From the IMG/VR virus record IMGVR_UViG_3300042888_001491, positions 1-52,205 of that record: a stretch of DNA of 52,205 bases; one strand, written 5' to 3'. This document shows positions 8,229 to 48,435 of the stretch, one piece after another. Below the pieces are notes generated by a model. That model saw nothing but the letters and a program-made list of their open reading frames with translations, had not been told where the DNA came from and searched no databases. The stretch comes from a virus. How positions within the stretch are numbered: the first letter of the stretch is position 1; the number at the start of each line of letters is the position of its first letter. Position numbers and translations under genes: made by a program.

Positions 8229-8820
8229 TAATATAGAACAAATAAAAAAATTACTCAACTTCGAAAATAAGGGTGACTTTTATATGCTTTACGTTCTTAA
8301 ACGTAAGAAGGACCAACCTGAGGGGGAAAGAGATAATCACCAGTCAGTTAGAACAATTAAATCATATTGTATTGAGTCCATTGAACATTTGGATCGTAGA
8401 TACGATGAGATTAAACAACTTTGTGAGATGTTTAAGGCTCGTGCTTATATCCACGTCCAAAAACAAAATCATACGGACGTGTCATTGAATATGATGGTTG
8501 ATCTTGCTAAAAGAATACAAGACGGTAATCATAAACAACAAGGTTTATTTGATTCTGTTGTGGGACAAGTTAAAACACAAGAGAAACGCTGGATTGTCGA
8601 TATCGATACGACCGATTATCACGCTGTTACTGAAGTGACACAATTTATAACCAGCCTCAGACCTGAAGGTCCAAAGGTTGAAATGGTAATCCCAACTAAA
8701 AATGGATACCATTTAATAACTGCTAGATTTGATGTTAAAACCTTTTCTGAAAAATATCCGGAAATTAGTATTCAAAAAAAGAATCCGACACTACTTTATT
8801 TACCAAACGTTCTTTCGTGA
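8212..8820 (+). CDS. hypothetical phage protein with primase-like motifs
   Basis: A 202-residue protein. After an N-terminal helix (IEQIKKLLNFENKGDFYMLY) come YIHVQKQN, RWIVDIDTTDY and later VIPTKNGYHLITARFD. The D-x-D strand and the GYH segment resemble motifs I and II of archaeo-eukaryotic-type primases, but the match is short and the rest is not recognised. It may be a nucleotide-binding phage protein with an inactive or minimal fold. Family assignment is tentative. Confidence 0.5.
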   Translation: MTNKIDNIEQIKKLLNFENKGDFYMLYVLKRKKDQPEGERDNHQSVRTIKSYCIESIEHLDRRYDEIKQLCEMFKARAYIHVQKQNHTDVSLNMMVDLAKRIQDGNHKQQGLFDSVVGQVKTQEKRWIVDIDTTDYHAVTEVTQFITSLRPEGPKVEMVIPTKNGYHLITARFDVKTFSEKYPEISIQKKNPTLLYLPNVLS

Positions 8821-8825
8821 TATTT

Positions 8826-9545
8826 ATGGGTATGATAGGAATATACAAAATTACCAACCCAAAAAATAAAGTCTATATTGGACAAAGTGTTAATATTGAA
8901 GAAAGGTTTAAAAAATATATTAAATTAAATTGCCCATCTCAAACAAAATTACTGAATTCACTAAAAAAATATGGTATTGATAGTCACAAATTTGAAATTA
9001 TTGAAGAATGTTTGTTGGAAAACTTGAATGATCGAGAGAGGTATTGGCAAGATTACTATAACGTTTTAGAGGAAGGGTTGAATTTAATAAAAACCAAAAC
9101 AGACACTAAAAGTGGTTATTTATCTGAAGAAACTAAAAATAAAATAAAAACATCCATGTTAGGTAAAAAAATACATAGTGATGAGTACAAGGAAAAGTTA
9201 AGACAAAGAATGTTAACAAACAACCCAAACAATATTGAGGGGGTTAGGGAAAAAATAATAAAGAATAAAACAGGAAAAAAACAACCTAAAATTTCTGAAT
9301 CTAAAAAAGGTAAAAAACGTCCAGATATTTCTGGTGAAAAAAGTTTTTTTTACAAAAATAGACCCGCAAATGCTGGAACACCAAAAAAGGAAATTATACA
9401 AATTGACAAATTAACTAATGAGATTATCCAAATTTTTCCAAGTATAAGCGAGGCAATGAGAAAAACAAATATAAAAGGAATTAAAGATTGCCTATCAAAT
9501 AGACAAAAAACATCTGGAGGTTTTATTTGGAAATATCTAAATTAA
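8826..9545 (+). CDS. GIY-YIG homing-type endonuclease with NUMOD domains
   Basis: The N-terminus has GIYKITNPKNKVYIGQS, the GIY...YIG core, then ERF with the conserved Arg and a downstream Glu (NDRERYWQDYYN). Repeats of the NUMOD3 kind (GKKIHSDEYKEKL, GKKQPKISESKKGKKRP) follow, and the C-terminus (IDKLTNEIIQIFPSISEAM) is a NUMOD1/IENR1-like DNA-binding module. It is a free-standing mobile endonuclease; no split gene is visible next to it. Start chosen at ATG 8826; a GTG at 8817 and ATG at 8832 are alternatives. Confidence 0.85.
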   Translation: MGMIGIYKITNPKNKVYIGQSVNIEERFKKYIKLNCPSQTKLLNSLKKYGIDSHKFEIIEECLLENLNDRERYWQDYYNVLEEGLNLIKTKTDTKSGYLSEETKNKIKTSMLGKKIHSDEYKEKLRQRMLTNNPNNIEGVREKIIKNKTGKKQPKISESKKGKKRPDISGEKSFFYKNRPANAGTPKKEIIQIDKLTNEIIQIFPSISEAMRKTNIKGIKDCLSNRQKTSGGFIWKYLN

Positions 9546-9552
9546 TAATATA

Positions 9553-9918
9553 ATGAAAATCAACAGACAAGAAGTTTATGATAAGTGTTCAGGTCATTGC
9601 GCTTATTGTGGAATTGAAATAACATTCAAACAGATGCAAGTGGATCACATAAAACCATTATATCGTAATGATAAAGTTGAGACACTTGAGGCTTGGGGTG
9701 TTGAACGAGGAACAGATGAGATGGACAATTTAAATCCATCCTGTTCTCGTTGTAATAAATGGAAATCAACATTCAGTTTAGAGATGTTTAGAACCATAGT
9801 CGAAAACTCTATCGATAGAATGGAGAGAGATACTCCTAATTTCAGATTAGCTCGTGATTACGGACTTATTGAAGTCAAACAAAATCCTGTGGTTTTTTAC
9901 TTTGAACGAAAGAATTAG
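9553..9918 (+). CDS. HNH endonuclease
   Basis: A 121-residue protein with a zinc-bound HNH fold: CSGHCAYCG, then MQVDHIKPL with the catalytic His, and DNLNPSCSRCNKWKS supplying the Asn and the second Cys pair. It is a small single-domain nuclease of the type found as free-standing phage homing enzymes or packaging-associated nucleases. It sits 7 nt after the GIY-YIG gene, so two mobile nucleases are adjacent. Confidence 0.85.
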   Translation: MKINRQEVYDKCSGHCAYCGIEITFKQMQVDHIKPLYRNDKVETLEAWGVERGTDEMDNLNPSCSRCNKWKSTFSLEMFRTIVENSIDRMERDTPNFRLARDYGLIEVKQNPVVFYFERKN

Positions 9919-9965: not shown

Positions 9966-10283
9966 ATGGAAAAAGTTATTATAGAAAAAGATGCGGTTCG
10001 CAAATGCGTAATCTTGGAAAAAGACGGTGAGTTTGTATTTCGTTCAGGGCCAGGAGAGTTCCACGAAGATGTTGCAAATAGATTCAGAGGAATTGATCCA
10101 GAACTAAAGGAATGGAGAATTCGTGGTGGTGGTAGAGTTAGATGGTCTGATCTTGGTATTAGAGTTTACGGTTATTCGGTTGACTACGGTCGTATGGATA
10201 AAGATGTTGTTGAACAACTGGTATCAGAGTTTGCAAATGAAAATGGTATTGAATTTATAAATGAAACAGGAGAGGGTTATTAA
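9966..10283 (+). CDS. Janus/Ocnus-family protein, phosphohistidine-phosphatase-like
   Basis: A 105-residue protein with the layout of the 14-kDa phosphohistidine phosphatase family (PHPT1, Janus, Ocnus): VRKCVILE with Lys13 early, GEFHEDVANRF with His33 in the position of the catalytic His, then RIRGGGRVRW (GGGR 54-57) and RVYGYSVDYG (67-75). The length matches the animal enzymes (about 125 aa). Known members remove phosphate from histidine or lysine side chains. A phage copy could act on host phosphorelays; that is inference. It has its own promoter. Confidence 0.65.
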   Translation: MEKVIIEKDAVRKCVILEKDGEFVFRSGPGEFHEDVANRFRGIDPELKEWRIRGGGRVRWSDLGIRVYGYSVDYGRMDKDVVEQLVSEFANENGIEFINETGEGY

Positions 10284-10284
10284 A

Positions 10285-10572
10285 ATGAGAAAGTTAGTAT
10301 TTTTAATGGGATTATTCCTATTGGTGTCTTGTGAAAGAGAAATTGAAGTAACCGTCGAAAAAACAACTGAGGTGGAAGATATTGGTGGTCTTGAGTTTGA
10401 ATATACCGATATGGATGTGTACCACATTCAAGAAATTGATGGGTGTGAATACATTTTAGTTAATGGAATGGATAATCGTGAACCGGCATTAACACACAAA
10501 GGGAATTGTAAATATTGTTTGGAACGAAACAAACAAAGGGTAATTGAGGTTAATGAAAAAGAAGAATATTAA
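10285..10572 (+). CDS. small lipoprotein
   Basis: The start at ATG 10285 gives MRKLVFLMGLFLLVSC, a lipoprotein signal with lipidated Cys16; an in-frame ATG at 10261 would bury it and is rejected. The mature part is acidic and contains IDGCEYILVNG and a later GNCKYCLE, so there are three further Cys. It is probably membrane anchored. Function unknown. Confidence 0.65.
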   Translation: MRKLVFLMGLFLLVSCEREIEVTVEKTTEVEDIGGLEFEYTDMDVYHIQEIDGCEYILVNGMDNREPALTHKGNCKYCLERNKQRVIEVNEKEEY

Positions 10573-10573
10573 T

Positions 10574-11005
10574 ATGAAAAATTTATTATTTATTACCTTA
10601 ATGGTATTTGGATTGTTTTCTTGTGATATGCCTGTCAAAAAAAGAGGTAGAACGGAAAATATCTATTTACGACAATTAGTTAAAACGGATGAGGTAACGA
10701 AAGAGGGTTCCGCTAGTTATTTTTTAGTGATGGGATCGGCGTCTTATAGTGAGGAAGTTACCACTAAAATTAAATTGATGGGTAAAGTGAATGGGTTCTA
10801 TCGTCTTATTGAGTTTGATTTTAAAGATGCGAGAATTAAAATTGATAACACAATTAATAAACCATACCTTTATATAACTTATCGAGATTATTATAATCGT
10901 AGTACAAACCAATTACTTGGTAGTGAGTGGTATTTAGTTACCTCATTCGTTATTGTATGTCCTGAGAAATATCTACCCGAAAAATTATTACCAATAAGTT
11001 TATGA
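10574..11005 (+). CDS. lipoprotein
   Basis: Start at ATG 10574: MKNLLFITLMVFGLFSC with lipobox LFSC, then a 127-residue mature region rich in beta strands (YRLIEFDFKDARIKID, YLYITYRDYYN). It follows the previous lipoprotein by one base, so the pair is co-translated and both should sit in the host envelope. No family recognised. Confidence 0.65.
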   Translation: MKNLLFITLMVFGLFSCDMPVKKRGRTENIYLRQLVKTDEVTKEGSASYFLVMGSASYSEEVTTKIKLMGKVNGFYRLIEFDFKDARIKIDNTINKPYLYITYRDYYNRSTNQLLGSEWYLVTSFVIVCPEKYLPEKLLPISL

Positions 11006-11026: not shown

Positions 11027-12289
11027 ATGATTAACCCAACAGGAAATAAATTAGAAAAAATTTTATTCGAGATCTTCGATAAATCTATCGAAAACGCCGA
11101 TATATATAACCATAACAAAAGTTTATGGTTAATCTTTACCAATGATATGAAGTGGGTTGTTGAATACACGGACACACAAACTCTGTGGTATAACTACCAA
11201 TTCTTTAAGAATGAAATGGAACTTGTTGGTTTAGATTGTGTTACAAACAAAGACCTTATCCAAAAGTGGTTTGAAACAAGATTCCTTAAACCTAAGGTTG
11301 AAAAAACCATCCAGGATGGGGTAAAACACACCTTTTATCCAAATCGTGGTCAATGGGAAGGTGTTGAAGACACTATTCAAAATTGGGTGAAACACACCCA
11401 TTTTTCTTTAAACCTATTAGACCCATCGTATCGTGTTGAAGACGCCATTAAAAATGGGGTGAAGAACACCGGAAGAAATTATCACTATACGAGAACAGTT
11501 GAAGATACCATTCAAAATGGGGTGAAACACACCCATTTTTCTTTCAAAAAGGTCAACACAATAATTGAAGACACTATTCAAAATGGGGTGAAACACACCA
11601 TACAACACGATCAAGATGTCCTTTTGTTGGTTGAAGATACCATTCAAAATGGTGTGAAACAAACTAAAGGTACTCTACGACATCCGGCATTCGTTGAAGA
11701 TGCGGTTCAAAATGGAGTTATACATACGCAAGAAATTGATTGGAACCGTGATATCGGACTGGTTAAAGACACCATTAAAAATGGGGTGAAAGACACCCAA
11801 CGTGCTTTTGGTGAAAACAAATTACAAGTTGAAGACACCATTCAAAATGGGGTAAAGCACACATCATTAAAGCGTTTAGATCCATCGTATCGTGTTGAAG
11901 ACGCCATTAAAAATGGTGTTAAAGAAGTGAAAGAAGTAAGTGAACTTAGTTTAGTAAGTGAAATATTTAAGGTTAATAGTAAAAGGGTAATTCAAAATGG
12001 GGTGAAGGAGACCACAACCAACAGATACCATCGTCGTAAGGAAGTTGAAGATACCATTGAAAATGGGGTGAAAAAAACTTCAGATAGACCTTTGGGGATA
12101 GAACTTGAGTGCATTAACGACATTATCCAAAATGGAGTGAAGTCCGTCTGTTTTGCTTATAATTGTGGCGATAATAGTGTTGAGGATATTATTGAAAATG
12201 GGGTGAAGTACGTTGATTTTGCTTTTGATCTTGGTTATTATGGTGATACTACGGTTGAGGATATTATTGAAAATGGTGAAAAAATATAG
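11027..12289 (+). CDS. tandem-repeat protein A (VEDTIQNGVKHT repeats)
   Basis: A 420-residue protein. Residues 1-90 are a globular N-terminal domain (NPTGNKLEKILFEIFDKS, WLIFTNDMKWVVEYT, TLWYNYQFF, KWFETRFLKPK) shared with the next gene. From residue 91 to the end there are about 15 repeats: a conserved 12-residue unit VEDTIQNGVKHT followed by 9-19 unrelated residues. One variable segment (LDPSYR) with its downstream repeat variant VEDAIKNGVK occurs twice, which indicates internal duplication. No signal peptide is seen. The repeat could form a short helix with display loops. Function unknown. Confidence 0.75.
   Translation: MINPTGNKLEKILFEIFDKSIENADIYNHNKSLWLIFTNDMKWVVEYTDTQTLWYNYQFFKNEMELVGLDCVTNKDLIQKWFETRFLKPKVEKTIQDGVKHTFYPNRGQWEGVEDTIQNWVKHTHFSLNLLDPSYRVEDAIKNGVKNTGRNYHYTRTVEDTIQNGVKHTHFSFKKVNTIIEDTIQNGVKHTIQHDQDVLLLVEDTIQNGVKQTKGTLRHPAFVEDAVQNGVIHTQEIDWNRDIGLVKDTIKNGVKDTQRAFGENKLQVEDTIQNGVKHTSLKRLDPSYRVEDAIKNGVKEVKEVSELSLVSEIFKVNSKRVIQNGVKETTTNRYHRRKEVEDTIENGVKKTSDRPLGIELECINDIIQNGVKSVCFAYNCGDNSVEDIIENGVKYVDFAFDLGYYGDTTVEDIIENGEKI
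11297..12286 (+). repeat. coding tandem repeats in protein A
   Basis: About 15 copies of a 36-nt unit encoding VEDTIQNGVKHT, separated by variable segments that always keep the reading frame. Many copies end in a potential GGTG...CACC mini-hairpin, but codon changes between copies are mostly synonymous or conservative, so protein-level selection explains them better than an RNA function. Confidence 0.8.
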
Positions 12290-12292
12290 AAG

Positions 12293-13486
12293 ATGAAAAA
12301 CCCATCAGGAAATAAATTAGAGAAACTTATGTTTAGGTTGTTTGACCAAATGGTTGAAGGATCTGACAAGTATATAACAAAACAAGGGTCAACTTGGTTG
12401 ATATTCACCGAAGAAAAAAAATGGATAACCGAATTTACGGAGTCAGGGACTTTATGGTTTAATTATAACTCTTTCCAATCAGAATTAGAATTAATTGGAA
12501 AAAAATGTGCGGATGAAACCAAAACAATATCCAAATGGTTTGAGTTAAGATTTTTGAATAAACCAACTATTGGACATACCTCACCTTACAAACACCGAGT
12601 AACAAAAAGAGTTGAAGATACCATTCAAAATGGGGTGAAAGACACCTTTGAAGCATTTGGGAGTTATGGCAGGTTAGTTGAAGATACCATTCAAAATGGG
12701 GTGAAACACACCGAGTCGTTCGACTTAGATATGATACGTGTCGTTGAAGATACCATTCAAAATGGGGTGAGACACACCGATATATTGGAATCAGGAAGAA
12801 CAGATAGTGTTGAGGACACCATACAAAATGGAGTTAAAGAAACCAAACTGAATTGGTTCAAACAAGAAAGGATTGTTGAAGACACAATTCAAAATGGGGT
12901 GAGAGAAACCAGCGGTCGAGTGTGTAATGCGAAGGAATATGTTAAAGATACCATTGAAAATGGGGTGAAACACATAGGTCCACGACAATGGGACAATACT
13001 GAAAATATTGATAACGCAATTAAAAATGGTGTTAAAGACACCCGTCAGATAGATTGGGAAATAAACTGGTCGGTTGAAAATACCATTCAAAATGGTGTGA
13101 AAGACACCAAAGTGGTTGAATTTGACCACTTTAAAACGGTTGAAGATACTACCCAAAATGGGGTAAAGGAAATTTATAGTACATTACGACGAACTAAGCT
13201 CGGAGTTGATGACATTATTGAAAATGGCGTTAAAGTAGCTAAACCAATGGAGGAATGGGTCAATACCGAACGTATTGTTGATGAAGTCGTAAAAGATGGG
13301 GTTAAAGAAATAAAAGAGTTACCTGATAAAAGCGGAGAACTTAAAGGTTATGGTGATTACTATCATAGACAAGAAAATTGGACAAAACCACATACAGATT
13401 ATGTTAAGGAAGTGATTGAAGATCATTACCATCATATGGGTAGAGTTGAAGGTATAATTAGAAATACGGATAAAGATGGGATTTGA
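12293..13486 (+). CDS. tandem-repeat protein B (paralogue of A)
   Basis: A 397-residue paralogue of the preceding gene starting 3 nt after its stop. The N-terminal domain is clearly related (NPSGNKLEKLMFRLFDQ, WLIFTEEKKWITEFT, TLWFNYNSF, KWFELRFL). Residues 107-340 hold 11 repeats, most exactly 22 aa: 12 conserved plus 10 variable residues. A non-repeat tail (residues 341-397) is rich in His and Tyr (DYYHRQENW, DHYHHMG). The variable decapeptides differ in charge and hydrophobicity, unlike a normal solenoid. Function unknown; the pair may form a variable binding surface. Confidence 0.75.
   Translation: MKNPSGNKLEKLMFRLFDQMVEGSDKYITKQGSTWLIFTEEKKWITEFTESGTLWFNYNSFQSELELIGKKCADETKTISKWFELRFLNKPTIGHTSPYKHRVTKRVEDTIQNGVKDTFEAFGSYGRLVEDTIQNGVKHTESFDLDMIRVVEDTIQNGVRHTDILESGRTDSVEDTIQNGVKETKLNWFKQERIVEDTIQNGVRETSGRVCNAKEYVKDTIENGVKHIGPRQWDNTENIDNAIKNGVKDTRQIDWEINWSVENTIQNGVKDTKVVEFDHFKTVEDTTQNGVKEIYSTLRRTKLGVDDIIENGVKVAKPMEEWVNTERIVDEVVKDGVKEIKELPDKSGELKGYGDYYHRQENWTKPHTDYVKEVIEDHYHHMGRVEGIIRNTDKDGI
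12611..13312 (+). repeat. coding tandem repeats in protein B
   Basis: Eleven units, mostly of 66 nt (36 nt conserved plus 30 nt variable). The period mimics a CRISPR array but every unit preserves the frame of one long ORF and the conserved part varies mainly at wobble positions. Confidence 0.8.
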
Positions 13487-13793
13487 TAAGAAAATATTGG
13501 AATTGAGTAGGACGATCTACCAAACATCTGTTATGTCTCACGGGTCCAAAAAAAACCCAGACGAACAGATTGATAAAATTAGATCGATGATCCGAGAGTT
13601 TATTAGAATGGAAGTGGTTCCGTATGAATTAACAAATCAGGAAAAAATGACATTCATACTTGATAACGAATTGAAAATAACTGAAGCGGTTATGAATGGT
13701 CATAGCGCAAACGATGGAGATGAATTCCAAGCAACAAGGATTAAGATTAAAAAATTTAGAAAAGAATTAGGGATTATTAAAGATGGAAAATAA
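13476..13793 (+). CDS. hypothetical helical protein, 105 aa
   Basis: The start overlaps the end of repeat protein B by 11 nt. The protein is charged and helical (KILELSRTIYQTSVMSHG, DEQIDKIRSMIREFIRMEV) with no membrane segment. No family recognised. Confidence 0.6.
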   Translation: MGFDKKILELSRTIYQTSVMSHGSKKNPDEQIDKIRSMIREFIRMEVVPYELTNQEKMTFILDNELKITEAVMNGHSANDGDEFQATRIKIKKFRKELGIIKDGK

Positions 13794-14557: not shown

Positions 14558-14998
14558 ATGGCAACAAACCCAAAACAAAAAAGATTATGGATTAAACAGG
14601 AGAAGCGAATTGTTCGTCTTCTGTATAGAAAAGGATTACTTTCAGATTTTAAGGTATCTGATTTTTATTGGGCTGAATATCATTGGTCAAATAAAAAGAA
14701 GTATAGATCAAAACACAGTAAATACAGATATCCTGTGTATATGCCTGAAGTTCATTATGGAACCACCGATTATTGGGGTGAAAGTGATGAACATAGTATT
14801 GTGGATAATATTTTACAAAGTTTATTTTGGGAAAACATTGATAACGAGAACTGGGACTCAACTTCAGGAGAGTGGCCAAAATCGACATTCCCAAGAATGA
14901 ACCGAGAACAATTCATTAAGTATTTGAGTAAATTACCTACAAAGGTAAACAACAATAAAATAAATAAAATCTTAAAAACACAGAACATAGATGAATAA
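14558..14998 (+). CDS. hypothetical protein, 146 aa, basic and aromatic
   Basis: Begins MATNPKQKRLWIKQEKRIVR. Strongly basic N-terminal half with many Tyr and Trp (FYWAEYHWSNKKKYRSKHSK), then an acidic stretch. It could bind nucleic acid, but no named domain is evident. It overlaps the thymidylate synthase start by 8 nt. Confidence 0.55.
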   Translation: MATNPKQKRLWIKQEKRIVRLLYRKGLLSDFKVSDFYWAEYHWSNKKKYRSKHSKYRYPVYMPEVHYGTTDYWGESDEHSIVDNILQSLFWENIDNENWDSTSGEWPKSTFPRMNREQFIKYLSKLPTKVNNNKINKILKTQNIDE

Positions 14999-16238
14999 TT
15001 TAGACATAAAATACCAAGAGTTACTTCAAGACATTTTGGACAATGGGAGTACTAAAAGTGATCGTACTGGTACTGGTACCATTTCAGTATTCGGTAGACA
15101 GATCCGTCATAAAATGAGTGAGGGGTTTCCTTTACTTACAACCAAGAAAATGGCTTGGAAAACTATGGTGACCGAGTTATTATGGTTCCTTCGTGGTGAT
15201 ACAAATATCAAATATCTTGTTGATAACGGTTGTCATATTTGGGATGGTGACGCTTATAAGTTCTTTAAGAATAGTTTTCCTATAAAAAAATCTAATCCAC
15301 CAAAAGATTACATCAATGAAGATGGTCAGTTATTGACACAAGAAGAATTCATCAACAAAATTAAAACAGATGATGAGTTTGCTAAGAAGTGGGGTGAGTT
15401 AGGCCCAATTTATGGTAAGCAGTGGAGAGGTTGGACTTCGACAAAGGCTGTTGAGTTTGATGAGGATACATTTGTACCTATTAAATACGAAGATGTTAGA
15501 GTTAATGACCAAATCCAAAACCTAATCAACGACCTTAAAACAAACCCAGACTCAAGACGATTGATGGTCAATGCTTGGAATGTTGGAGAATTAGACCAAA
15601 TGGTTCTTCCACCTTGTCATTATGGATTTCAAGTTTATACAAGAGAGTTGAGTTTGGAAGAAAGAACAAAACTTCTTGTAAATAAAAGTGATAATAAGAA
15701 AGATTTCTATGATAGGAATGGAAGATTAATTGTTGAGGATGAATCTGTATTAAATGATTCAAATATTCCTAAACGAACAATCTCTCTAATGTGGAATCAA
15801 CGTTCAGTAGATACATTCTTAGGATTACCATTCAACATTGCATCTTATGGTTTGTTATTGGAAATAATTGCGAAAGAAGTGAATATGGTTCCTGATGAAT
15901 TGGTTGGTAATTTAGGTGATGTTCATTTGTATTCAAACCATATCGAACAAGCAAAAGAACAGATTGGTAGAGATTTGACTGAAGATGAAAGATATGAATT
16001 AGTAACTCAACAGATGAGTAAATTACGGGCTATTACAGATGAGGATTACATTAAATATAATATTCCAAATAGAACAAGAGAACCATATCCACTACCCTTT
16101 TTAAAACACATGAAAACGTATGAGTTCTACAAATCTTTAAGTGAGGATCATTCACTATTCCACCACCTAAATCCAACAGATTTTATGGTGGAAAACTACC
16201 AATCACACCCAAGTATTAAAGCACCCTTATCAAATTAA
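14991..16238 (+). CDS. thyA: thymidylate synthase
   Basis: Makes dTMP from dUMP and methylene-tetrahydrofolate in the cytoplasm. The signatures are intact: SDRTGTGTISVFG near the N-terminus, DSRRLMVNAWN, the catalytic Cys209 in LPPCHYGFQVY, SLMWNQRSVDTFLGLPFNIA, and GNLGDVHLYSNH. At 415 residues it is well above the usual ~264, owing to insertions around residues 95-135, about 45 residues after the active site (218-262), and additions near the C-terminal end. No dCMP hydroxymethylase features are seen, so it most likely supplies dTTP for phage DNA synthesis. Confidence 0.93.
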   Translation: MNNLDIKYQELLQDILDNGSTKSDRTGTGTISVFGRQIRHKMSEGFPLLTTKKMAWKTMVTELLWFLRGDTNIKYLVDNGCHIWDGDAYKFFKNSFPIKKSNPPKDYINEDGQLLTQEEFINKIKTDDEFAKKWGELGPIYGKQWRGWTSTKAVEFDEDTFVPIKYEDVRVNDQIQNLINDLKTNPDSRRLMVNAWNVGELDQMVLPPCHYGFQVYTRELSLEERTKLLVNKSDNKKDFYDRNGRLIVEDESVLNDSNIPKRTISLMWNQRSVDTFLGLPFNIASYGLLLEIIAKEVNMVPDELVGNLGDVHLYSNHIEQAKEQIGRDLTEDERYELVTQQMSKLRAITDEDYIKYNIPNRTREPYPLPFLKHMKTYEFYKSLSEDHSLFHHLNPTDFMVENYQSHPSIKAPLSN

Positions 16239-20299: not shown

Positions 20300-22210
20300 A
20301 TGAAATTAATTAAGGGGTTAATCCTTACAATGTTATTATCACTACCTTTTATAGGGTTATCACAAGTACCTTCAGCACCATCTAATGGTTTGTGGGGTAT
20401 CATTGCGTCTCAATATCAGATTGGGACTTCAGCACAAGGGTCAACAACCGCCAAAATTACACTACAAAATACAACCCTAACAAAATTCGCTGGGGTTCAG
20501 CTTAGAGTATTTTATGATAAGGTAGCATTTACAAATGCAACGGTATCTTTGATAGGATCAACAACAAACTTAGATCTTCAATATGTGACTAACACTGCGA
20601 ATGGTTACATTACAATGACATTAAGTTACACTGGTCCAAGTTCTACGTACACTATACCAAACGGTGAAAAATTCTTAATCACATTTACTCACGCTCCAGC
20701 ATCAACATTTAATAACTTATCAACAATAAGTAACTTAACTTGGACAGGAGTTCAAACGTTTACACCATACGCCGCAAAACAAGATGGTATGGATACAACT
20801 TTGAGTGTTCATAACTATGGTGGTGTGTTTACACCTGTAAACTTTGATTACCACGGAACATTTACAAACGTAACTGGTACAGGAGCTAAAACATTAACTT
20901 TAGCGTTAGAGAAAAAACCATCAGGTGGATCAACTTGGACACAACATTCTGTTTATGTTACGGATAATAACGGAGACTTTAATATTTCGGTTCCATTGGA
21001 TACGACATATTGGGACGTTCGTTTAGCTGTTAAAGGAGATACTATGGGTGTTGGTAATGTTGTATCAACAACAGATGCTCAATTAATAAACCAATGGGTT
21101 TTGGGTAACGGAACAATGACAGGGTTTGATTACTATACTGCAGATGTTAACGGATCTAACAACACAACAATCTCAGACGTTTGGGGTGTGTTTGGTAGAG
21201 TTTCAGGAAGATTTACATCTTGGCCTAACAATACAAAAGATGTTAAATTCTTTACGTCAACGGAATATACGACAATTAATGGTTCGTCAACTAACTACAC
21301 CTCATCAATTGCTGGTGTAACTAACTTTACATTTGATATCCTACCGGGTCAACCTGATTCAGTTGTTTATTATGTGATGGTACCGGGTGATGCAAATGGG
21401 ACAGGATATAATATGGCTCGTATAACCCCTATTGAGGTAGTGGTTGGTCCAATACCTGGTTTAGAAAATCAAATATACAATGTTATTGACACTAAAGTGG
21501 AATACGATTTCCCAACACAATCTATTGAAATAAATGTTCCTAATATCTCAGTTCAGGCTGGTAACTTAGTTGAACTTCCTGTGAGTGTTATAACAAATGG
21601 AATTGAATTAAGTTCATTACAATTTGGTTTGAAATACAATGACACCTTATTACAATTTAAAGGTATTACATCATCAGCCGAGGCAATGAAATGGATTTCA
21701 TACGTTAACCCTAACGACAACGAGATTGAATGGGGAGGGTTTGATCCTACAAATAATGACAACACATTAAAAGATGGTAATCAAGTTGTTATAATACAAT
21801 TCTTGGCGTTACAACCACAGAACTTATGGGATGCAAGTCCTTTGTACACTAATAGAAAATTTGCTGGAACTACATACTCAAGTGATTTGTCTTTAACACC
21901 AACTAACGGAATCCTTCAGGTATTAAAAATGGAAGGTGGAAACATCTTGAACGATAACAATATGGAAGTATATCCTAATCCATATCAAGACGAAGTTACA
22001 ATCACATTCAAAGTTGAGGAGACAACAAACGCAACACTATCGGTATATGATTTAGTTGGTAGAAAGTTAGTTACAATATTAGACACACAAATACCTGATG
22101 GGATTTATAACTACACTAAAAACTTAGGTGAGTTAGAACCAGGGGTTTACATAGTTAAACTTAGTGTTGAGAACGGAGTTCCATCATTCGAAAGAATAAT
22201 TAAACAATAA
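20300..22210 (+). CDS. secreted protein with type IX secretion (Por) sorting domain
   Basis: A 636-residue protein. Residues 1-21 are a Sec signal peptide (MKLIKGLILTMLLSLPFIGL). The body is Thr/Asn-rich beta sheet, with a dockerin-like calcium pattern around TTDAQLINQWVLGN and TADVNGSNNTTISD, and a cohesin-like strand region (NISVQAGNLVELPVSV). Residues 551-636 form a type-A T9SS C-terminal sorting domain: MEVYPNPYQDEVTITF, LSVYDLVGRKL, LEPGVYIVKLS. Such domains direct proteins through the host's type IX secretion system to the cell surface or medium. A phage gene exploiting that route is unusual. Its role may be adhesion or surface coating. Confidence 0.85.
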   Translation: MKLIKGLILTMLLSLPFIGLSQVPSAPSNGLWGIIASQYQIGTSAQGSTTAKITLQNTTLTKFAGVQLRVFYDKVAFTNATVSLIGSTTNLDLQYVTNTANGYITMTLSYTGPSSTYTIPNGEKFLITFTHAPASTFNNLSTISNLTWTGVQTFTPYAAKQDGMDTTLSVHNYGGVFTPVNFDYHGTFTNVTGTGAKTLTLALEKKPSGGSTWTQHSVYVTDNNGDFNISVPLDTTYWDVRLAVKGDTMGVGNVVSTTDAQLINQWVLGNGTMTGFDYYTADVNGSNNTTISDVWGVFGRVSGRFTSWPNNTKDVKFFTSTEYTTINGSSTNYTSSIAGVTNFTFDILPGQPDSVVYYVMVPGDANGTGYNMARITPIEVVVGPIPGLENQIYNVIDTKVEYDFPTQSIEINVPNISVQAGNLVELPVSVITNGIELSSLQFGLKYNDTLLQFKGITSSAEAMKWISYVNPNDNEIEWGGFDPTNNDNTLKDGNQVVIIQFLALQPQNLWDASPLYTNRKFAGTTYSSDLSLTPTNGILQVLKMEGGNILNDNNMEVYPNPYQDEVTITFKVEETTNATLSVYDLVGRKLVTILDTQIPDGIYNYTKNLGELEPGVYIVKLSVENGVPSFERIIKQ

Positions 22211-22879: not shown

Positions 22880-23622
22880 TGAAAAAAGTAGTATTCATAC
22901 TATCAATATTTAGTTTATTCAGTTGTAAAACAACACAAGCTCAGCCCCCACAAACCAGTGGGGGTATTGGTTCTGTGAAAACTGAACAATATCAAGCTGA
23001 ATTTGAGAAGAAGCAATCTATCAATGATGTGTCAGATTATACTGATACAATACAAGTTCCCATCCAATTATTAAAGATTGGTATTAATGAGGAGTTGTAT
23101 GAGTTATATCCTGAACTTAAAGACAAACGAGTTGGTTTAGGTGTAACAAACATTGTGATTGAGTATTTAGAGTATACGGGTAGATTTGTTTTTACCGAAG
23201 AAAAAGAAGACATCAAACAACGAATGATTGCTCAGGACAAAGCTTCTGATAAAGGAATTTCAGTTAATAAGATTGATGTAAAAGGAAATGTAATCTTAGC
23301 AAAATACTTTGTATACATTGAGGTATATGACTTCAGTGTATCGGAGGATGAGGTTGTTAAAGTTAACGGACAACAGACAACAACACAAACAACACGATTA
23401 GGATTACAAATTAAATTCGTAGATGCTGAGACAAGTCAAGTGATCGTTGGATCAGGATTGGGTGAGGCAAGTACGGTAAAGACCTCAACAATATTGGGGG
23501 ACATCTCAGATGATGTTAAATTTAACCAATCAACTATTGGTATAACAACAAAGAAGGCGTTAGAGACAGCATCTTCAAGAGTGGTGAGTCGACTTATCAC
23601 AAAAGGAGTATTTAAAAATTGA
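22879..23622 (+). CDS. csgG: CsgG-family outer-membrane lipoprotein
   Basis: A 247-residue protein with a lipoprotein signal (MKKVVFILSIFSLFSC, Cys16). The mature part follows the CsgG/HfaB pattern: GLGVTNIVIEYLEYTGRFVF, ILAKYFVYIEVYDFSV, RLGLQIKFVDAETSQVIVGS, and a C-terminal helix with TTKKALETASSRVV. CsgG forms a nonameric outer-membrane channel that exports curli subunits; CsgG homologues are also known in marine phages, with unknown purpose. Here it directly precedes a barrel-like protein and several secreted proteins, so it may provide an export pore. Confidence 0.75.
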   Translation: MKKVVFILSIFSLFSCKTTQAQPPQTSGGIGSVKTEQYQAEFEKKQSINDVSDYTDTIQVPIQLLKIGINEELYELYPELKDKRVGLGVTNIVIEYLEYTGRFVFTEEKEDIKQRMIAQDKASDKGISVNKIDVKGNVILAKYFVYIEVYDFSVSEDEVVKVNGQQTTTQTTRLGLQIKFVDAETSQVIVGSGLGEASTVKTSTILGDISDDVKFNQSTIGITTKKALETASSRVVSRLITKGVFKN

Positions 23623-25235
23623 AACTAAATGTATTCATATTATTGTTTTATTGCGTGTTTGGGTTCTTTAACCTGAATGCGCAATCTTACAATTATAGTT
23701 ACTCTGATCCCTGTACGGGAAATCTTAAAACTATAGTCATACCGATAAATGGAAACGTAATAGTTTCATACTACGGTGAAACGGGATCGTTTAGTCAAAA
23801 CGATTTTACAAACGGGACATTTGAATCTTGGACTAATAACATATTTTCACAATATGGAACAAATAGTCCTTGCTCTGAAATAATAGGTTTGGGTACGGCA
23901 ATTAACATAACCCAAGGAACAGCATTAAACGTAATCGGAATTCTTAATTCATTATCCACAATCTCAGATTTAGCGGGGGGATCCACAAATTTAATAGGTG
24001 GGTCTGTAACTACTATTAATAATACAGGGAATGGAAATTCAAAGGGTAACGATAAGAAGGGGAATAAATCCCAAAATGGAAGTGGAAATAATACTACAAA
24101 TAATAATACCACAACCAATAATACTCAAAATCAAACGAATGGAACAGGTAACTCTACTCAAGGAGGTACAACCACTTCTGGAACAAATGAAGGAGGTACA
24201 AACGGAGGAAATGGAACCACTAGTCAAAATGTTGGAACTCAAAATCCAACACAAGCAGGAGGAACTACAACTCAAGGTGGATCAAATGAAACTGGAAATC
24301 AATCGACTAACCCGACTATAAATGGGGGAACTCAAACAACAGAACCAAATGGTGGTGGTCAAACAACTGAAACACCAATAAACAATCAAACAACAAGTGG
24401 AAATGGAAATAGTAGTAGTGAGCCTGGGAATGGGTCTAATGGTGGGGCAGGGAATAACGGGACTGGTTCGGGAAGTAATAAACCTGAGGAAAATAAAACT
24501 CCTGAAACAGGAAAAGAAGAAGGTGGACAAACAAATATAACAGGTGGTGCAACCACAACGGTAAAGGCAACCCCAACTAGTAAAGAAGGTGGTAAACCCA
24601 CAATAGTCGCTAGTGGTGACTTTGTTGGGTTTAACTTTAGAGATTCTGAAGTGAATACAGGGTTAAAAGTAACAGGTGGGTATACTGCAATGAGATGGGA
24701 TGGTAAAAGAAGTTCGGGGGTTTTAGGTGACTATACTTCAGCCCTTAGAGGTCCTAATATAACTGCGTTCTATGCTTTTATTAGACCTAAATCAATTGTG
24801 ATTGGTTCTGGAACACTAACCATTGGGTTTGAAGGTAATAAGTCATTATACGGTACGGTAGCAATAGGACAAATGTTTACGTTTAAGAAACCTAAATCTC
24901 TTAAACTTCTTTATATGGGGACGGTATCTTATGGAAATGTTTATAGAGAATCATTTTTGGGGACTGCATTAATTGTTGGGGGGACTTACGATATGAGGAT
25001 AGGTAAACGAATAGATGTTAAATTAATGAATTTATTTGTTTACGCTCCGTATGTTAGTTACTATAATGATGTTGTATTGAAATCTCCTTATGTGATGTTA
25101 CCAAGTATTGGTACAAATATTAAAATTACAAAGAAGTTCAAATTCAACATAAACGCAGGTGGTGCTTGGGATTTAAAAACAAGTGCTTTAAATTATACGG
25201 TAACGTGTGGAGCAAGAATGTTAGTAGGACAATAA
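23619..25235 (+). CDS. exported outer-membrane protein with Gly/Asn/Thr-rich linker and C-terminal barrel-like domain
   Basis: A 538-residue protein that uses a TTG start overlapping the csgG stop; no in-frame ATG is near, and only the TTG gives a full signal peptide (MKLNVFILLFYCVFGFFNLN, then AQS). Residues about 130-310 are low-complexity (Asn, Gly, Thr, Gln), probably a disordered stalk. Residues about 320-538 alternate aromatic and polar strands (VGFNFRDSEVNTGLKVTGGY, TAFYAFIRPKSIVIGSGTLT) like an outer-membrane barrel. It probably works with CsgG in the outer membrane. The frame-overlapping start suggests coupled translation. Confidence 0.65.
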   Translation: MKLNVFILLFYCVFGFFNLNAQSYNYSYSDPCTGNLKTIVIPINGNVIVSYYGETGSFSQNDFTNGTFESWTNNIFSQYGTNSPCSEIIGLGTAINITQGTALNVIGILNSLSTISDLAGGSTNLIGGSVTTINNTGNGNSKGNDKKGNKSQNGSGNNTTNNNTTTNNTQNQTNGTGNSTQGGTTTSGTNEGGTNGGNGTTSQNVGTQNPTQAGGTTTQGGSNETGNQSTNPTINGGTQTTEPNGGGQTTETPINNQTTSGNGNSSSEPGNGSNGGAGNNGTGSGSNKPEENKTPETGKEEGGQTNITGGATTTVKATPTSKEGGKPTIVASGDFVGFNFRDSEVNTGLKVTGGYTAMRWDGKRSSGVLGDYTSALRGPNITAFYAFIRPKSIVIGSGTLTIGFEGNKSLYGTVAIGQMFTFKKPKSLKLLYMGTVSYGNVYRESFLGTALIVGGTYDMRIGKRIDVKLMNLFVYAPYVSYYNDVVLKSPYVMLPSIGTNIKITKKFKFNINAGGAWDLKTSALNYTVTCGARMLVGQ

Positions 25236-25243
25236 TAACAATA

Positions 25244-26212
25244 ATGTTATTTGTGATTCCGTTTATGGGGTTTACTCAAACCTTTACATATTCGGGATAC
25301 ATTTATAATGCGGATGGAACAGGCGCGGTTAATGTACCTGTTAAGTTGTATAAAAGAACAACACCGGTAATGAATGGATTTACCAATCAACAAAACTTTA
25401 ATGGGCACTCATATTATAGATCAACAGGGTCAATGACTTGGACGGACGCAAGACAAGCCTGTATTAATATGGGGGGACATTTAGTTACCTCAACATCATT
25501 AGCCGAAAACAATTTCCTATTCAGCCTTTGGCCAAATGGGTGGATCGGATTAACCGATGAGGTCAATGAAGGTGTGTGGAGATGGGTTACGGGTGAACCT
25601 TATTCTTGGTCGTATTGGAATAGTGGAGAACCAAACAATGCCGGTAACGAGGACTACATTCAATTCGTCGGAGGAGGTAGATGGAATGATTTACCTAACA
25701 CATCATTACCATATGTTTTGGAGTTTGAATATATTGTGACTTTTACCCCTTGGGTGTTACATCAAACGGTTTACACTAACTCATCGGGGTACTATAACTT
25801 TTCACAACCGACAAGTCCTGCGGTTGAGTGGTACATACAATATGATGCTCCAACACCGGTAACTACACTACAAACTACGGATATGGTAGAAGTTTCTAAA
25901 TTAATATTAGGTGTTACACCAATTAAAAGTATTCATTACCACAGATATGATGTGAACTATGATGGGAGAATAAACGTTGCCGATCAAAATTATATTAATC
26001 TTAGACGATATGGTTTATTAGGGGGTTGGATTAATATGAGTCCATCCAGATTATATACAACCGCACAATACACAACATTAACGACAAATACATCAGATCT
26101 AAGATCAACAATACCTGGTGTGTCATCAATAACAATAAACTCACCTGTAAGTGGGGGATCACAAAACTATTATCTGATCGCTCCTGGGTATAAAACAACC
26201 GTATCATATTAA
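25244..26212 (+). CDS. secreted C-type lectin-domain protein with dockerin-like segment
   Basis: From ATG 25244 the protein starts MLFVIPFMGFTQTFTYSG, a short hydrophobic export signal; the true start may be a non-ATG codon slightly upstream. A C-type lectin domain spans about residues 50-165: HSYYRSTGSMTWTDARQACI, GGHLVTSTSLAENNF, WIGLTDEVNEGVWRWVTGEP, then EPN (129-131) and WND (147-149), the Ca2+ and mannose-type sugar-binding motifs. The usual disulfide Cys are mostly missing. After it, YDVNYDGRINVADQNYI is a dockerin/EF-hand-like calcium loop. It probably binds glycans on cell surfaces. Confidence 0.75.
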   Translation: MLFVIPFMGFTQTFTYSGYIYNADGTGAVNVPVKLYKRTTPVMNGFTNQQNFNGHSYYRSTGSMTWTDARQACINMGGHLVTSTSLAENNFLFSLWPNGWIGLTDEVNEGVWRWVTGEPYSWSYWNSGEPNNAGNEDYIQFVGGGRWNDLPNTSLPYVLEFEYIVTFTPWVLHQTVYTNSSGYYNFSQPTSPAVEWYIQYDAPTPVTTLQTTDMVEVSKLILGVTPIKSIHYHRYDVNYDGRINVADQNYINLRRYGLLGGWINMSPSRLYTTAQYTTLTTNTSDLRSTIPGVSSITINSPVSGGSQNYYLIAPGYKTTVSY

Positions 26213-32887: not shown

Positions 32888-33615
32888 TGACACCAGGGCA
32901 AATGTGGGTTAAAAGAAGATATAAGGATCTTATAAGTGATGTTGAAGAGGCAACATCTCTCATAAATGTTGAGGATCATAAAGACTTCAAAGACTATGCT
33001 ACTGAAGTATATGATTCGGCTTTAGATATCTATATGTCACATACTGACCACGAGTTAGATAATTTTTGGGACATATATAGTAGTATAATGGATTCAATGG
33101 AAGATATTTTTAATGATCAGTTGAAAGATTATTACGGTAATTCTGAAGAAACCCTAAATGAAAACTTTGATCAGATTCTTGATTTATACAAAAAAGTTAA
33201 GGAAGGCGAAAAGTTAAAACCATCCGAACAATCTATGATGAGGTCGTTTAAAAATTTTGTTGATAAAGGTGGTAACGCAGAAGAGTTTGTTTACGATCTT
33301 GATCAAGAGATGATGCCAGATGAAAGAGAGGGTGAAAGATTTAGATGGGAAAGACACGGAACTCCTTTAACTTATGAGTTTTCCGAAGAATATGAATCAG
33401 ATGGGGAAATAAATTACTTCGGTGAGATAAAATATATGGGCGATGAATTCCTTGGGGTTATCTCAACAGACAAAAGAGGTTATCTAACCGATTATGACTT
33501 TTATAGTGTGTTCGATGAAGAAGTTAGATTACAGGATATTTTAAAAGAAAATGGACTCGAACCTGAAATAACCAACTTCTTTCAAGAAGAGATAATCAAT
33601 TCATTAAGAAAATGA
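32884..33615 (+). CDS. hypothetical acidic protein, 243 aa
   Basis: It overlaps the preceding stop by 4 nt. Highly acidic and helical in the first 150 residues (DISDVEE-type runs, KDYYGNSEETLNENFDQILD), with a strand-rich end (INYFGEIKYMGDEFLGVIS). SEETLNENFDQI resembles phage virion-linked sequences. No named domain. Confidence 0.6.
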   Translation: MMTPGQMWVKRRYKDLISDVEEATSLINVEDHKDFKDYATEVYDSALDIYMSHTDHELDNFWDIYSSIMDSMEDIFNDQLKDYYGNSEETLNENFDQILDLYKKVKEGEKLKPSEQSMMRSFKNFVDKGGNAEEFVYDLDQEMMPDEREGERFRWERHGTPLTYEFSEEYESDGEINYFGEIKYMGDEFLGVISTDKRGYLTDYDFYSVFDEEVRLQDILKENGLEPEITNFFQEEIINSLRK

Positions 33616-34163
33616 AAATAGTTATCACGGAATCTCAAATGAGAATGGTGATTGAGAGTTCAAACAAACCCACTCGTAAATCCGAAATTCTTAAAAAAAT
33701 GTGGGATAAACAAACTAAAGAGAAAGGTTACCCGACTTTTGATGAAGATATCTTAGGTTATTTCGGTATAGATAGATGGACGGATATTAGGGACTATGGT
33801 GAGTTCTTCAATGATTACATTGGCGGAGAAGAAAAAACTATGGAAATAATTGATAACTTATCAATTAATAACTTCTCAACAAAAGATTTTCCTGAAATGT
33901 TTGTTGGTGGGTATGACTTTGATTGGAGAATCACTAATGTTTACGTAAAAGATGATGTTTATAAAATAGAGTGTCAAGTATCAGAAGGGGGATCTGTTAC
34001 CACTATGGATGGTAGACACTTATCTTTAGAAGATGCTTTGAATGATGATGAGGTTGGATTTGAGATACAGGGTGAAGTAAGTGGAGTTATACAAGATTGT
34101 TTAAACTCATTAATATATCCGAGAACGGGAATAAAGGTTTTAGTGTATTACGTGGAGATATGA
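33612..34163 (+). CDS. leader-peptide protein (MKIxITESQ type), 183 aa
   Basis: Starts MKIVITESQMRMVIESSN: a leader with ITE, related to those at 34160, 34531, 34865 and 40109. The body includes IDRWTDIRDYGEFFNDYIGG and a C-terminal half with YKIECQVSEGGSVTTMDGRH. Function unknown. Lies in an operon of leader genes with 4-nt overlaps. Confidence 0.6.
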   Translation: MKIVITESQMRMVIESSNKPTRKSEILKKMWDKQTKEKGYPTFDEDILGYFGIDRWTDIRDYGEFFNDYIGGEEKTMEIIDNLSINNFSTKDFPEMFVGGYDFDWRITNVYVKDDVYKIECQVSEGGSVTTMDGRHLSLEDALNDDEVGFEIQGEVSGVIQDCLNSLIYPRTGIKVLVYYVEI

Positions 34164-34531
34164 AAATAATAATTACAGAATCACAATTAAAAACTATAAC
34201 ATTTCAAAATACGGTTGATATGTCATTTGACGATATCAAAAAAAAATGTAATAAGATGAACGAACTTGGCGCCGATGCCCCTGAGATTATTAGTTTTGAT
34301 GTTTGTGATCAAATAGAGTCAATTTCAAAAGTTGAAGTTGTAAATGTGTATAAAACAAACAATATGATTGAAATATCGATTATTGTTTATTACGAAACTA
34401 TTTTTCAATCGTTAGATGTTGGTGGATTCCTCTATGAGTTAGAATATCATTTGAGAGAATATTTAGGGAAAGGGAACTTTAAGTTAAAACTACTTAATTC
34501 AATAAATACAAGAGAGGACTTTAACTGGTGA
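34160..34531 (+). CDS. leader-peptide protein (MKIIITESQ type), 123 aa
   Basis: Start at ATG 34160, overlapping the previous stop, gives MKIIITESQLKTITFQNT. An upstream ATG at 34097 is inside the previous gene. The body has an alternating strand pattern (KVEVVNVYKTNNMIEISIIV). Unknown function; leader class as above. Confidence 0.55.
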   Translation: MKIIITESQLKTITFQNTVDMSFDDIKKKCNKMNELGADAPEIISFDVCDQIESISKVEVVNVYKTNNMIEISIIVYYETIFQSLDVGGFLYELEYHLREYLGKGNFKLKLLNSINTREDFNW

Positions 34532-34863
34532 TGAAAATAATAATAAGTGAAAATCAAATGATGAGTTTAAGGTTCAGACGAAGAGGTGTGGAACTTGATA
34601 AAATAAGTGATATAATTGAGTATCAAACTGAAATACAAGATCCTTGTAATTTTGATGATGGTGAAGAATATGCGGATTTTTGTATAAACCAAGGAATTAG
34701 TTTTTATTATTGTGATGAAAATTATTGTGATGAAGATGATGAGGATTACAGAGAACCTTCTGATGAAATGATTGAGGTTAGAGAAGAAGTTGAAACATAC
34801 CTAAATAATAAGTACTATAATTATTTAGTTAATTTATGGGAAGAAGATGGAAATTGTGATTAA
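34531..34863 (+). CDS. leader-peptide protein (MKIIISENQ type), 110 aa
   Basis: MKIIISENQMMSLRFRRRG at the start (ISE), then an extremely acidic body with Cys residues (ISFYYCDENYCDEDDEDYRE). Cys and Asp could bind metal. The start overlaps the previous stop. Confidence 0.55.
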   Translation: MKIIISENQMMSLRFRRRGVELDKISDIIEYQTEIQDPCNFDDGEEYADFCINQGISFYYCDENYCDEDDEDYREPSDEMIEVREEVETYLNNKYYNYLVNLWEEDGNCD

Positions 34864-34864
34864 T

Positions 34865-35167
34865 ATGAAAATAATACTAACAGAAAAGCAGGCGGATAGA
34901 ATATTCAAAGACGAGATTGTTTGTGAGAAATGTGAACACTCTTGGAATAAAGAGGAGGGTGATAGACATCCATACCTTTGCCACGATTGTGGTTGGGACC
35001 TGAAGGAACAAAAATATGACAAAGAAAATCTTTATAAGTTTTGGAAGAAGAAATTATCTAAAGATCCTATTGAGGAAAAATGGTCTGAAAAATATAAAAA
35101 ATCAATAAATTGTAAAAACCCAAAAGGTTTTAGTCAGAAGGCTCATTGTCAAGGGAGAAAAAAATAA
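34865..35167 (+). CDS. leader-peptide zinc-ribbon protein with NPKGFSQKAHCQG ending
   Basis: A 100-residue protein starting MKIILTEKQADRIF (LTE). A zinc ribbon CEKCEHSWNKEEG...CHDCGWDL sits at about residues 20-45. The C-terminus, CKNPKGFSQKAHCQGRKK, is a basic motif I know as a recurrent tail in phage hypothetical and structural proteins. Likely nucleic-acid binding and packaged or late. Confidence 0.6.
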   Translation: MKIILTEKQADRIFKDEIVCEKCEHSWNKEEGDRHPYLCHDCGWDLKEQKYDKENLYKFWKKKLSKDPIEEKWSEKYKKSINCKNPKGFSQKAHCQGRKK

Positions 35168-42320: not shown

Positions 42321-42348
42321 ATCCCTACATAATTGTGGGGATTTTTCT
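42321..42348 (+). terminator. Rho-independent terminator
   Basis: ATCCCTACA, loop TAAT, TGTGGGGAT with nine paired positions (one G-T), followed by T-rich sequence. Confidence 0.8.
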
Positions 42349-42358
42349 TTTATTAAAG

Positions 42359-42365
42359 TATTTAT
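42359..42365 (+). promoter_or_regulatory. TATTTAT promoter candidate
   Basis: TATTTAT ends 5 nt before ATG 42371, which is the start that yields a leader peptide. Confidence 0.4.
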
Positions 42366-42370
42366 ATGTG

Positions 42371-43912: not shown

Positions 43913-43916
43913 TAAA

Positions 43917-44189
43917 CTACGCAAGATTCTTTAGAACCATCTCCAAAGAGTAGATGGATTCTTTGTCTTGTTTAGTTTTATTTGTCTTAGATCTTAAGTA
44001 GTTCAAACTATCAATAATTTCTTCTCTCTTACTTTTTGATCTCAAAGGTGGGGTTACCAATGAGGGAGTTTTTCTTGTATTCGCCTTACTTAAATTATCA
44101 GATCCAAGAAACTCTCTAACAATCTCTAACGACTTATCAGGATTCCAAGTGAAGATGTTAACCAAAACGTATGCGAATATCTTTTTCAT
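43917..44189 (-). CDS. hypothetical protein, 90 aa
   Basis: On the - strand, starting MKKIFAYVLVNIFTWNPDKS (codon at 44187-44189); an upstream start at 44216 is less likely. Basic and Ser/Lys-rich with a helical centre (REEIIDSLNYLRSK). Unknown. Third - strand gene in the window. Confidence 0.55.
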   Translation of the reverse strand: MKKIFAYVLVNIFTWNPDKSLEIVREFLGSDNLSKANTRKTPSLVTPPLRSKSKREEIIDSLNYLRSKTNKTKQDKESIYSLEMVLKNLA

Positions 44190-44232
44190 ATTATAAAGAT
44201 ACAAAATATTCAACACATAACTATCTTTAAGG

Positions 44233-44240
44233 ATATTTAT
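44233..44240 (+). promoter_or_regulatory. ATATTTAT promoter candidate
   Basis: ATATTTAT ends 5 nt before ATG 44246, the first gene of the leader-paralogue operon, in the divergent gap with the - strand gene at 43917. Confidence 0.4.
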
Positions 44241-44245
44241 TTATA

Positions 44246-44887
44246 ATGAAACAACTCATCAGACATATATTAAAAGAAGAAGTTAATCGAAAATATTCTA
44301 AACCTACACCAAAGGTAGAACAACTTGTTTATAGATGGTTAAATGATTATTTTAATGGTGCTCAAATGTACCACAACAAATCGTGGGAATCAACACATAG
44401 TTTTGAATTTTGTAATCACGGAAAAGAAATATTACATATTACTTTATATTTTAATGTTGATTATAGTGTTTATGATGATAAAAGAAAAACCGAAGAAAGA
44501 GATCTTGAGCGAGGTTACCTAACAGTTCCAAAAAATGTATTTGAAGAGTTATCGTTAGATATTCCTGTAAGGGCAAGTTATTTAAAATACCTTTTTGAAG
44601 AATGGTTTGACGATACTTATTTAGGTGAAATTCAAAAGTTTATGGGTAGAAATGATATCTATATTGATGAATTTGATGTTACTGGTAGAGACGCTGAAAC
44701 TTGCGTACCACCAGTAACAAAACCTGAAGATGTGAGTGATGAGGATATGATACAATATATTCTTAAAACCACACTTTTTAAAAAAGATGATATATTAAAA
44801 TATGAAAATGAAGAACCAGGTTGGATTGAAAAAACTTATTTAGAAAAACTTCGCGGTGATGAAATGGAAAGATTAAGAGGACAATGA
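44246..44887 (+). CDS. leader-peptide protein (LIRxILKEE type), 213 aa
   Basis: MKQLIRHILKEEVNRK at the start (LKE), the clearest form of the leader. The body has YRWLNDYFNGAQMYHNKSWE, strand-rich ILHITLYFNVDYSVYD, and a helical C-terminus. No known domain. First of five adjacent leader genes with 4-nt or 1-nt overlaps. Confidence 0.6.
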   Translation: MKQLIRHILKEEVNRKYSKPTPKVEQLVYRWLNDYFNGAQMYHNKSWESTHSFEFCNHGKEILHITLYFNVDYSVYDDKRKTEERDLERGYLTVPKNVFEELSLDIPVRASYLKYLFEEWFDDTYLGEIQKFMGRNDIYIDEFDVTGRDAETCVPPVTKPEDVSDEDMIQYILKTTLFKKDDILKYENEEPGWIEKTYLEKLRGDEMERLRGQ

Positions 44888-48424: not shown

Positions 48425-48435
48425 ATAATTTCTAC

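Follow-up and report, generated by a model that had tools for sequence, protein, structure and literature searches.

Translated repeat-spacer arrays in phage genomes may display an evolving set of short peptides

Two adjacent phage genes, A and B, carry arrays in which a conserved repeat alternates with short spacers that differ from one unit to the next, and these arrays are translated into protein. They lie on the plus strand of a viral record in IMG/VR that is 52,205 bases long, referred to here as the window. Among related arrays, units are gained, lost, and exchanged, the freshest spacers have a base composition that looks foreign to the phage, and individual peptides are maintained by purifying selection. 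Each gene would combine a folded N-terminal domain with a rack of short peptides, the whole forming a translated repeat-spacer array. Our favoured explanation, to which we give an even chance, is that the rack gains its units from short pieces of foreign DNA, retains those peptides that are useful, and serves in multi-specific binding.

The original prediction for this region described a paralogous pair of proteins with a common N-terminal domain followed by about 15 and 11 copies of a 12-residue motif, and this layout was confirmed. When a copy is defined by an identity of at least 7/12 to VEDTIQNGVKHT, ORF A (11027-12289, 420 aa) contains 15 copies, the last of which reaches the stop codon. 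Its intervening segments are 10, 12, 9, 10, 10, 9, 11, 10, 10, 16, 10, 11, 10, and 13 residues long, so that 7 of the 14 have exactly 10. In ORF B (12293-13486, 397 aa), 10 copies follow one another at an exact period of 66 nt, and all nine segments between these phased copies are exactly 10 residues long; with the degenerate copies in its tail, the total comes to about 11-12. The N-terminal domains of about 90 residues and the other parts of both genes are located in Table 1. The 3′ half of the A unit at 11399..11470 (LDPSYR-VEDAIKNGVK) is repeated at 11876-11929 (LDPSYRVEDAIKNGVKEV), which represents a partial duplication of a unit inside A.

Table 1. Positions of the parts of genes A and B, and of leader-bearing ORFs, within the window.
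Feature	Position	Strand	Basis or remark
ORF A N-terminal domain, ~residues 1-90	11027..11296	+	50% identity to N-domain of B; W/Y/F pattern invariant in 69 relatives
ORF A array, 15 copies of the 12-residue motif with variable segments of 9-16 residues	11297..12289	+	Canonical 5′ end, degenerate 3′ end
Segment HFSLNLLDPSYR and motif VEDAIKNGVKNT in A	11399..11470	+	
Perfect VEDTIQNGVKHT copy in A, DNA/example GTTGAAGATACCATTCAAAATGGGGTGAAACACACC	11498..11533	+	
ORF B N-terminal domain, residues 1-89	12293..12559	+	A/B identity, W/Y/F pattern of relatives, AF2
ORF B linker, N-domain to first canonical motif	12560..12610	+	AF2 pLDDT <50 from residue 91 on
ORF B array, 10 motif copies and nine 30-nt variable segments	12611..13240	+	Tandem repeat of period 66
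Freshest part of B, spacers FEAFGSYGRL and ESFDLDMIRV	12611..12778	+	Three successive repeats, each 35/36 nt identical to the next
ORF B degenerate tail (MEEWVNTERI...LPDKSGELKGYGDYYHRQ...HMGRVEGIIRNTDKDGI)	13241..13483	+	Common to B-type relatives
Small downstream ORF	13476..13793	+	Near the array in 34/83 related loci
Leader-bearing ORFs	42335-50373 (starts 42335, 44246, 44884, 45387, 46232, 49235); 33612-35167; 40091		

The surroundings of the arrays contain genes of several other types. Two small lipoprotein-like ORFs lie directly upstream (10261-11005), and tandem GIY-YIG-like and HNH-like endonuclease ORFs are found about 1 kb upstream (8817-9918). A thymidylate synthase of 415 aa (14991-16238) has long insertions relative to its plasmid homologues, and the corresponding PHROG profile has 335 positions. 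Near-identical short leaders (MKxLIRHILKEE / MRELIRKILNES, or MKIIITESQ-like) open many unrelated ORFs of the window, and their sequences suggest a common N-terminal tag, for example a capsid-targeting or prohead-protease leader. The ORF at 20300-22210 ends in a type A sorting domain of the T9SS that matches Bacteroidota proteins, which points to a host in this phylum. Phage proteins with a secreted look are encoded at 20300-22210 and 23619-26212, and the third of these has a C-type-lectin-like segment.

Relatives of the arrays are present on well over 100 IMG/VR contigs of up to 318 kb, a length which implies that at least some of the carriers are jumbo phages. A profile of the N-domain identified 112 encoding stretches in IMG/VR, rising to 140 with a more distant profile, and a DNA pattern for the motif was found in at least 119 stretches. 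A search for the same repeat in other genomes, as proposed with the original prediction, was successful: motif and N-domain recur, far beyond chance, in a pooled set of 111 non-redundant array ORFs from relatives, and the array ORFs that were inspected at full length all start with the N-domain. No convincing relative was found in the collection of sequenced phages. Bacterial genomes of 84,980 species gave four isolated pattern matches, which were taken as chance. No Pfam or PHROG family covers the array proteins, and the matches of A and B to Pfam, PHROG, and PDB sequences were either at chance level or inflated by the repeats, such as that of Dodecin to the motif. A literature search turned up neither the motif nor arrays of this type, and no described counterpart. 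Three other contigs carry the arrays of the window in identical form, and a different array is present at more than 20 loci. The occurrence of identical arrays across several metagenomes indicates that their turnover is evolutionary and does not take place in each infection.

The regular geometry of 36-nt repeats and 30-nt spacers, the near-identical repeats, the unique spacers, and the polar decay of the repeats could all be expected of a genuine non-coding CRISPR array over which an open reading frame had arisen by chance. Spacers were defined from the DNA repeats alone, without reference to ORFs, and 670 out of 670 had lengths that are multiples of three, with 566 being exactly 30 nt. An in-frame stop is present in only 1 of 571 distinct spacers, compared with 37% and 63% when the other two sense frames are read, and the freshest spacers give the same picture (0 of 82 in frame, 45% and 39% in the others). 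The repeats diverge mainly at third codon positions (mean minor frequency 0.165, 0.074, and 0.290), and dN/dS amounts to 0.18 for the N-domain and 0.30 for the repeats. Furthermore, a hairpin in the repeat RNA folds no better than in shuffled sequences, the array region has no match in Rfam, and no Cas1 scored above the cut-off in 14 related contigs of up to 318 kb, which are fragments. The statistics on frames and stops exclude a chance reading frame over a CRISPR array and, with a conserved N-domain protein and repeats that drift synonymously, they reduce the probability of this alternative to a negligible level.

The segments between the motifs are highly diverse. Within the family, 872 segments from 99 arrays include 656 of exactly 10 residues and 606 distinct peptides. 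For 371 dissimilar 10-mers, entropy is 4.0-4.2 bits at each of the 10 positions; this near-flat profile agrees with the earlier description of segments with no conserved composition, although weak but significant preferences exist for aromatic residues, Leu, or Gly at position 5, for Arg at position 7, and for Lys, Ser, or Arg at position 1. Spacers that are common to several phages have a cluster-weighted dN/dS of 0.39 (95% CI 0.33-0.45), which demonstrates purifying selection, and a value of 0.15-0.28 when pooled over pairs that are up to 30% diverged. For example, ELSKRDFF is encoded by four DNA versions that all give the one peptide. The proposal of a rack that displays diverse short peptides is supported by segments that are unconstrained across units, individually under purifying selection, and reshuffled as whole units. 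Strict conservation of the segments in distant relatives, which had been named as evidence against such a rack, was not clearly observed: the set of segments differs between relatives, and single segments are conserved where they are shared.

Comparisons between closely related genes reveal how the arrays change. Genes in which the N-domain DNA is more than 98% identical (98-100%) often have only part of their units in common, and single units may be inserted or deleted between neighbours that otherwise match, as with a spacer of 63% GC that is present in L022 and absent from L024. One array contains DYFEYTNNTL twice, as the result of a tandem duplication, and LDPSYR is likewise duplicated in the window. 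Exchange is evident from 28 peptides that are found in identical form with N-domains of less than 65% identity, and the order of shared spacers varies between such distant N-domains. Between close pairs, novel units occur along the whole array and not only at its 5′ end, with a shared fraction of 0.35 to 0.48 along the array. The adjacent array genes L207:4265-4921 and L207:4986-6227 have a common spacer that differs by one base (IAHGLISANT / IAHGLMSANT). Both of them carry the array-specific repeat variant VENVIQNGVINT, from which it appears that the repeats are homogenised within each phage.

Such shuffling and tandem duplication, both seen directly, would suffice if no DNA were captured at all, and the arrays changed solely through recombination among existing arrays and through spacers that diverge rapidly as they circulate in the phage pool. 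We consider this unlikely in view of the freshest units. Eight repeats in L177, and five and six in L207, are identical over 36 nt, all of them around unique 30-nt spacers, which would not be expected from divergence within the phage pool. In 76 of 79 arrays (median rho -0.66), the repeats become less like the canonical form on the way from the 5′ to the 3′ end. The spacers between identical repeats have a GC content of 0.447, against 0.314 for the locus (p=1e-13). At 4-fold sites, the GC content of spacers is 0.413, 0.328, 0.302, and 0.198 as divergence of the repeats rises, compared with 0.174 in phage genes; the contrast between young and old spacers is significant (p=2e-9), and the GC content is still raised without the two most extreme loci. 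A weaker test, which compared the total GC of young and old spacers array by array, showed no significant difference (Wilcoxon p=0.14, 39 arrays). With age, GC1 and GC2 change little and stay high while GC3 drops from 0.45 to 0.26, which is what foreign DNA should show when it turns native under selection on amino acids. Diverging phage DNA would not yield a 4-fold GC content of 0.41 beside identical repeats that then falls with repeat age to the phage value, and we infer that the foreign-like composition originates from capture. The earlier view of the region has held in part, in that the peptide rack is supported; the CRISPR-like geometry of the DNA and the foreign-like fresh segments were absent from it.

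A source for the spacers was sought in INPHARED phages, PLSDB plasmids, E. coli genomes, 1.6 Mb of flanking DNA, and the carriers' own contigs, and none was found in these collections, a result that would also be consistent with an absence of capture. Were the captured DNA to come from hosts, Bacteroidota genomes would be its most probable origin. Fresh spacers have no clear codon periodicity, and both in-frame and random-frame DNA are possible as their source. Out-of-frame phage DNA was considered and rejected, as a frame mixture gave no support for it and the GC content is too high. Patterns for the old spacers EDGDW and PAQDGN, used to look for them outside arrays, matched only array ORFs and two unrelated chance hits. 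The fifth spacer of L177:14303-14734 (TATTCAGACGTGATATATCACGTCTCCTAC), which is a fresh one, contains a perfect 20-bp palindrome that matches its own reverse complement, perhaps a clue to what sort of DNA would enter the arrays. No reverse transcriptase (PF00078) is present in the 14 related contigs (fragments); an inserting enzyme could act in trans.

If units are gained by capture, a new one would consist of a copy of the 36-nt repeat and about 30 nt that do not stem from the phage itself, added preferentially in the 5′ half of the array. Units that break the frame or contain a stop would be purged, and recombination in the repeats would also duplicate or delete units and pass them from one phage to another. 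Useful peptides would be kept by selection at the amino-acid level while their synonymous sites drift towards the composition of the phage. The protein would most likely work inside the host cell and bind several targets, with a separate factor of the host, of its defences, or of a rival phage for each peptide. A rack of up to ~25 different peptides, kept while useful and exchanged, would fit a binder directed against variable factors of hosts, defences, or competitors, and we consider this the most likely function. The decoy, epitope-mimic, and inhibitor roles suggested earlier are hypothetical, and a solenoid receptor or a peptide precursor would be a less probable alternative. A more specific version, which we regard as rather doubtful, is that ~30-bp pieces of host or rival DNA are inserted by an integrase, which might be host Cas1-Cas2 if it used the CRISPR-like repeat in trans, and that the resulting 10-residue peptides are selected as binders, making the array a translated genetic memory.

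If the capture of peptide units is correct, the arrays provide a route by which arbitrary short DNA is repeatedly turned into selected peptide, in an ordered and datable array. The origin of functional peptides from unrelated sequence would become directly testable, because the age of a unit can be read from repeat divergence and composition. Phages would gain a modular and exchangeable repertoire of anti-host peptides, and CRISPR-like insertion would have a new context. Should the translated memory also be real, it would mean that phages evolve new peptide functions from captured DNA.

Structure prediction bears on how the peptides might be presented. For a homologue of B, AF2 folds residues 5-89 of the N-domain into a helix, four strands, and two helices with pLDDT mostly above 90, and the array units attached to it in the same run have pLDDT ~30. 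A fold search with the N-domain found nothing significant in the PDB, and four uncharacterised Caudovirales proteins in BFVD (E 8e-6 to 6e-3). A relationship to the poxvirus D5/E5 helicase region, the best VIA alignment, was set aside, as a Z of 3.5 is too weak to use. When given seven units in register, AF2 produced a right-handed beta-solenoid (best model pLDDT 79, pTM 0.76) that resembles generic beta-helices of the SufB/D and pectate-lyase types, with Z up to 13. The arrays might then be ordinary tandem-repeat solenoids, either beta-solenoids or relatives of the FNIP leucine-rich repeats (LRRs), in which the variable segments are loops that arose by unequal crossing-over and divergence. 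The 22-residue unit, the weak hydrophobic preference at spacer position 5, and a match of the family profile to Crov588, an FNIP LRR protein with 22-residue repeats (1.4e-11 summed over repeats), are in line with this. However, pLDDT in the five solenoid models ranges from 79 to 38, and AF2 has been found to produce confident but unrealistic beta-solenoids from near-perfect repeats (PMC11795689). Each Crov588 domain contributes only 8-12 bits to what is a repeat-inflated match, and there is no match to LRR, FNIP, or MORN families in Pfam. Moreover, the first motif copy in a distant subfamily continues the last helix of the N-domain, with W-VEDTIQNG aligned to W-FESRFLNK. This alignment suggests that the array motif is helical, and that the repeat may have arisen from this last helix. 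A solenoid also leaves unexplained the flat composition of the spacers and the foreign-like base composition of the fresh ones, and we view it as somewhat unlikely. A regular solenoid had been given in advance as a finding that would count against the rack; one appears in the seven-unit run and is not clearly present when the N-domain is attached.

An N-domain followed by a constant, recognition-like motif and variable, core-like segments is also the type of organization expected of a precursor polyprotein, whose units would be cut apart so that the variable 10-mers (or 22-mers) are set free to serve as signals or inhibitors. Individual conservation of the peptides would be compatible with such processing, but the neighbour clusters that were inspected include no peptidase or modifying enzyme with a consistent link to the arrays, and the segments have no conserved modifiable residue. 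A precursor of this kind seems very improbable.

Several known systems have features in common with these arrays. The FNIP/FGxxFN leucine-rich repeats of giant viruses, such as Crov588, have 22-residue repeats with an LxFGxxFN core and form large repertoires (PMC9525666). The period of 22 residues and the large viral repertoires are found in both cases, together with a weakly similar stretch (VENVLPNGLTH in FNIP and VEDTIQNGVKH here); the other 10 residues, with the LxFGxxFN core, are conserved in FNIP and free here, and Pfam gives no FNIP or LRR match. We rejected an FNIP-class LRR because the variable half is near-flat at all 10 positions, so that an LxxLxF/FN core is not present in every unit.

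Modular gain, loss, and exchange of coding units are known from the variable lymphocyte receptors of lampreys and from integron cassette arrays. The phage arrays are similar in this respect and differ in having units of 66 nt with a free variable part, without a known assembly enzyme. Diversity-generating retroelements use a reverse transcriptase to copy a template with mutations at adenines. Like the arrays, they can be carried by phages and diversify a protein segment that is displayed. Here, however, whole segments are new and do not derive from a template by adenine mutation, and the 14 contigs (fragments) encode no reverse transcriptase.

The closest parallels are with CRISPR arrays, and several CRISPR subtypes of Bacteroidota have 36-nt repeats and 30-nt spacers. 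Likeness extends from these lengths to identical fresh repeats, unique spacers, foreign-like composition, and decay of the repeats from one end. In contrast to CRISPR, no Cas1 was detected in the 14 contigs (fragments) and no protospacer in the collections searched; the arrays are translated and selected as protein, they contain no frame-breaking spacers, old spacers are conserved as peptides, and recombination takes place inside the array. The arrays are CRISPR-like in geometry, and probably in the gain of spacers, yet as translated, protein-selected sequences they are not CRISPR arrays.
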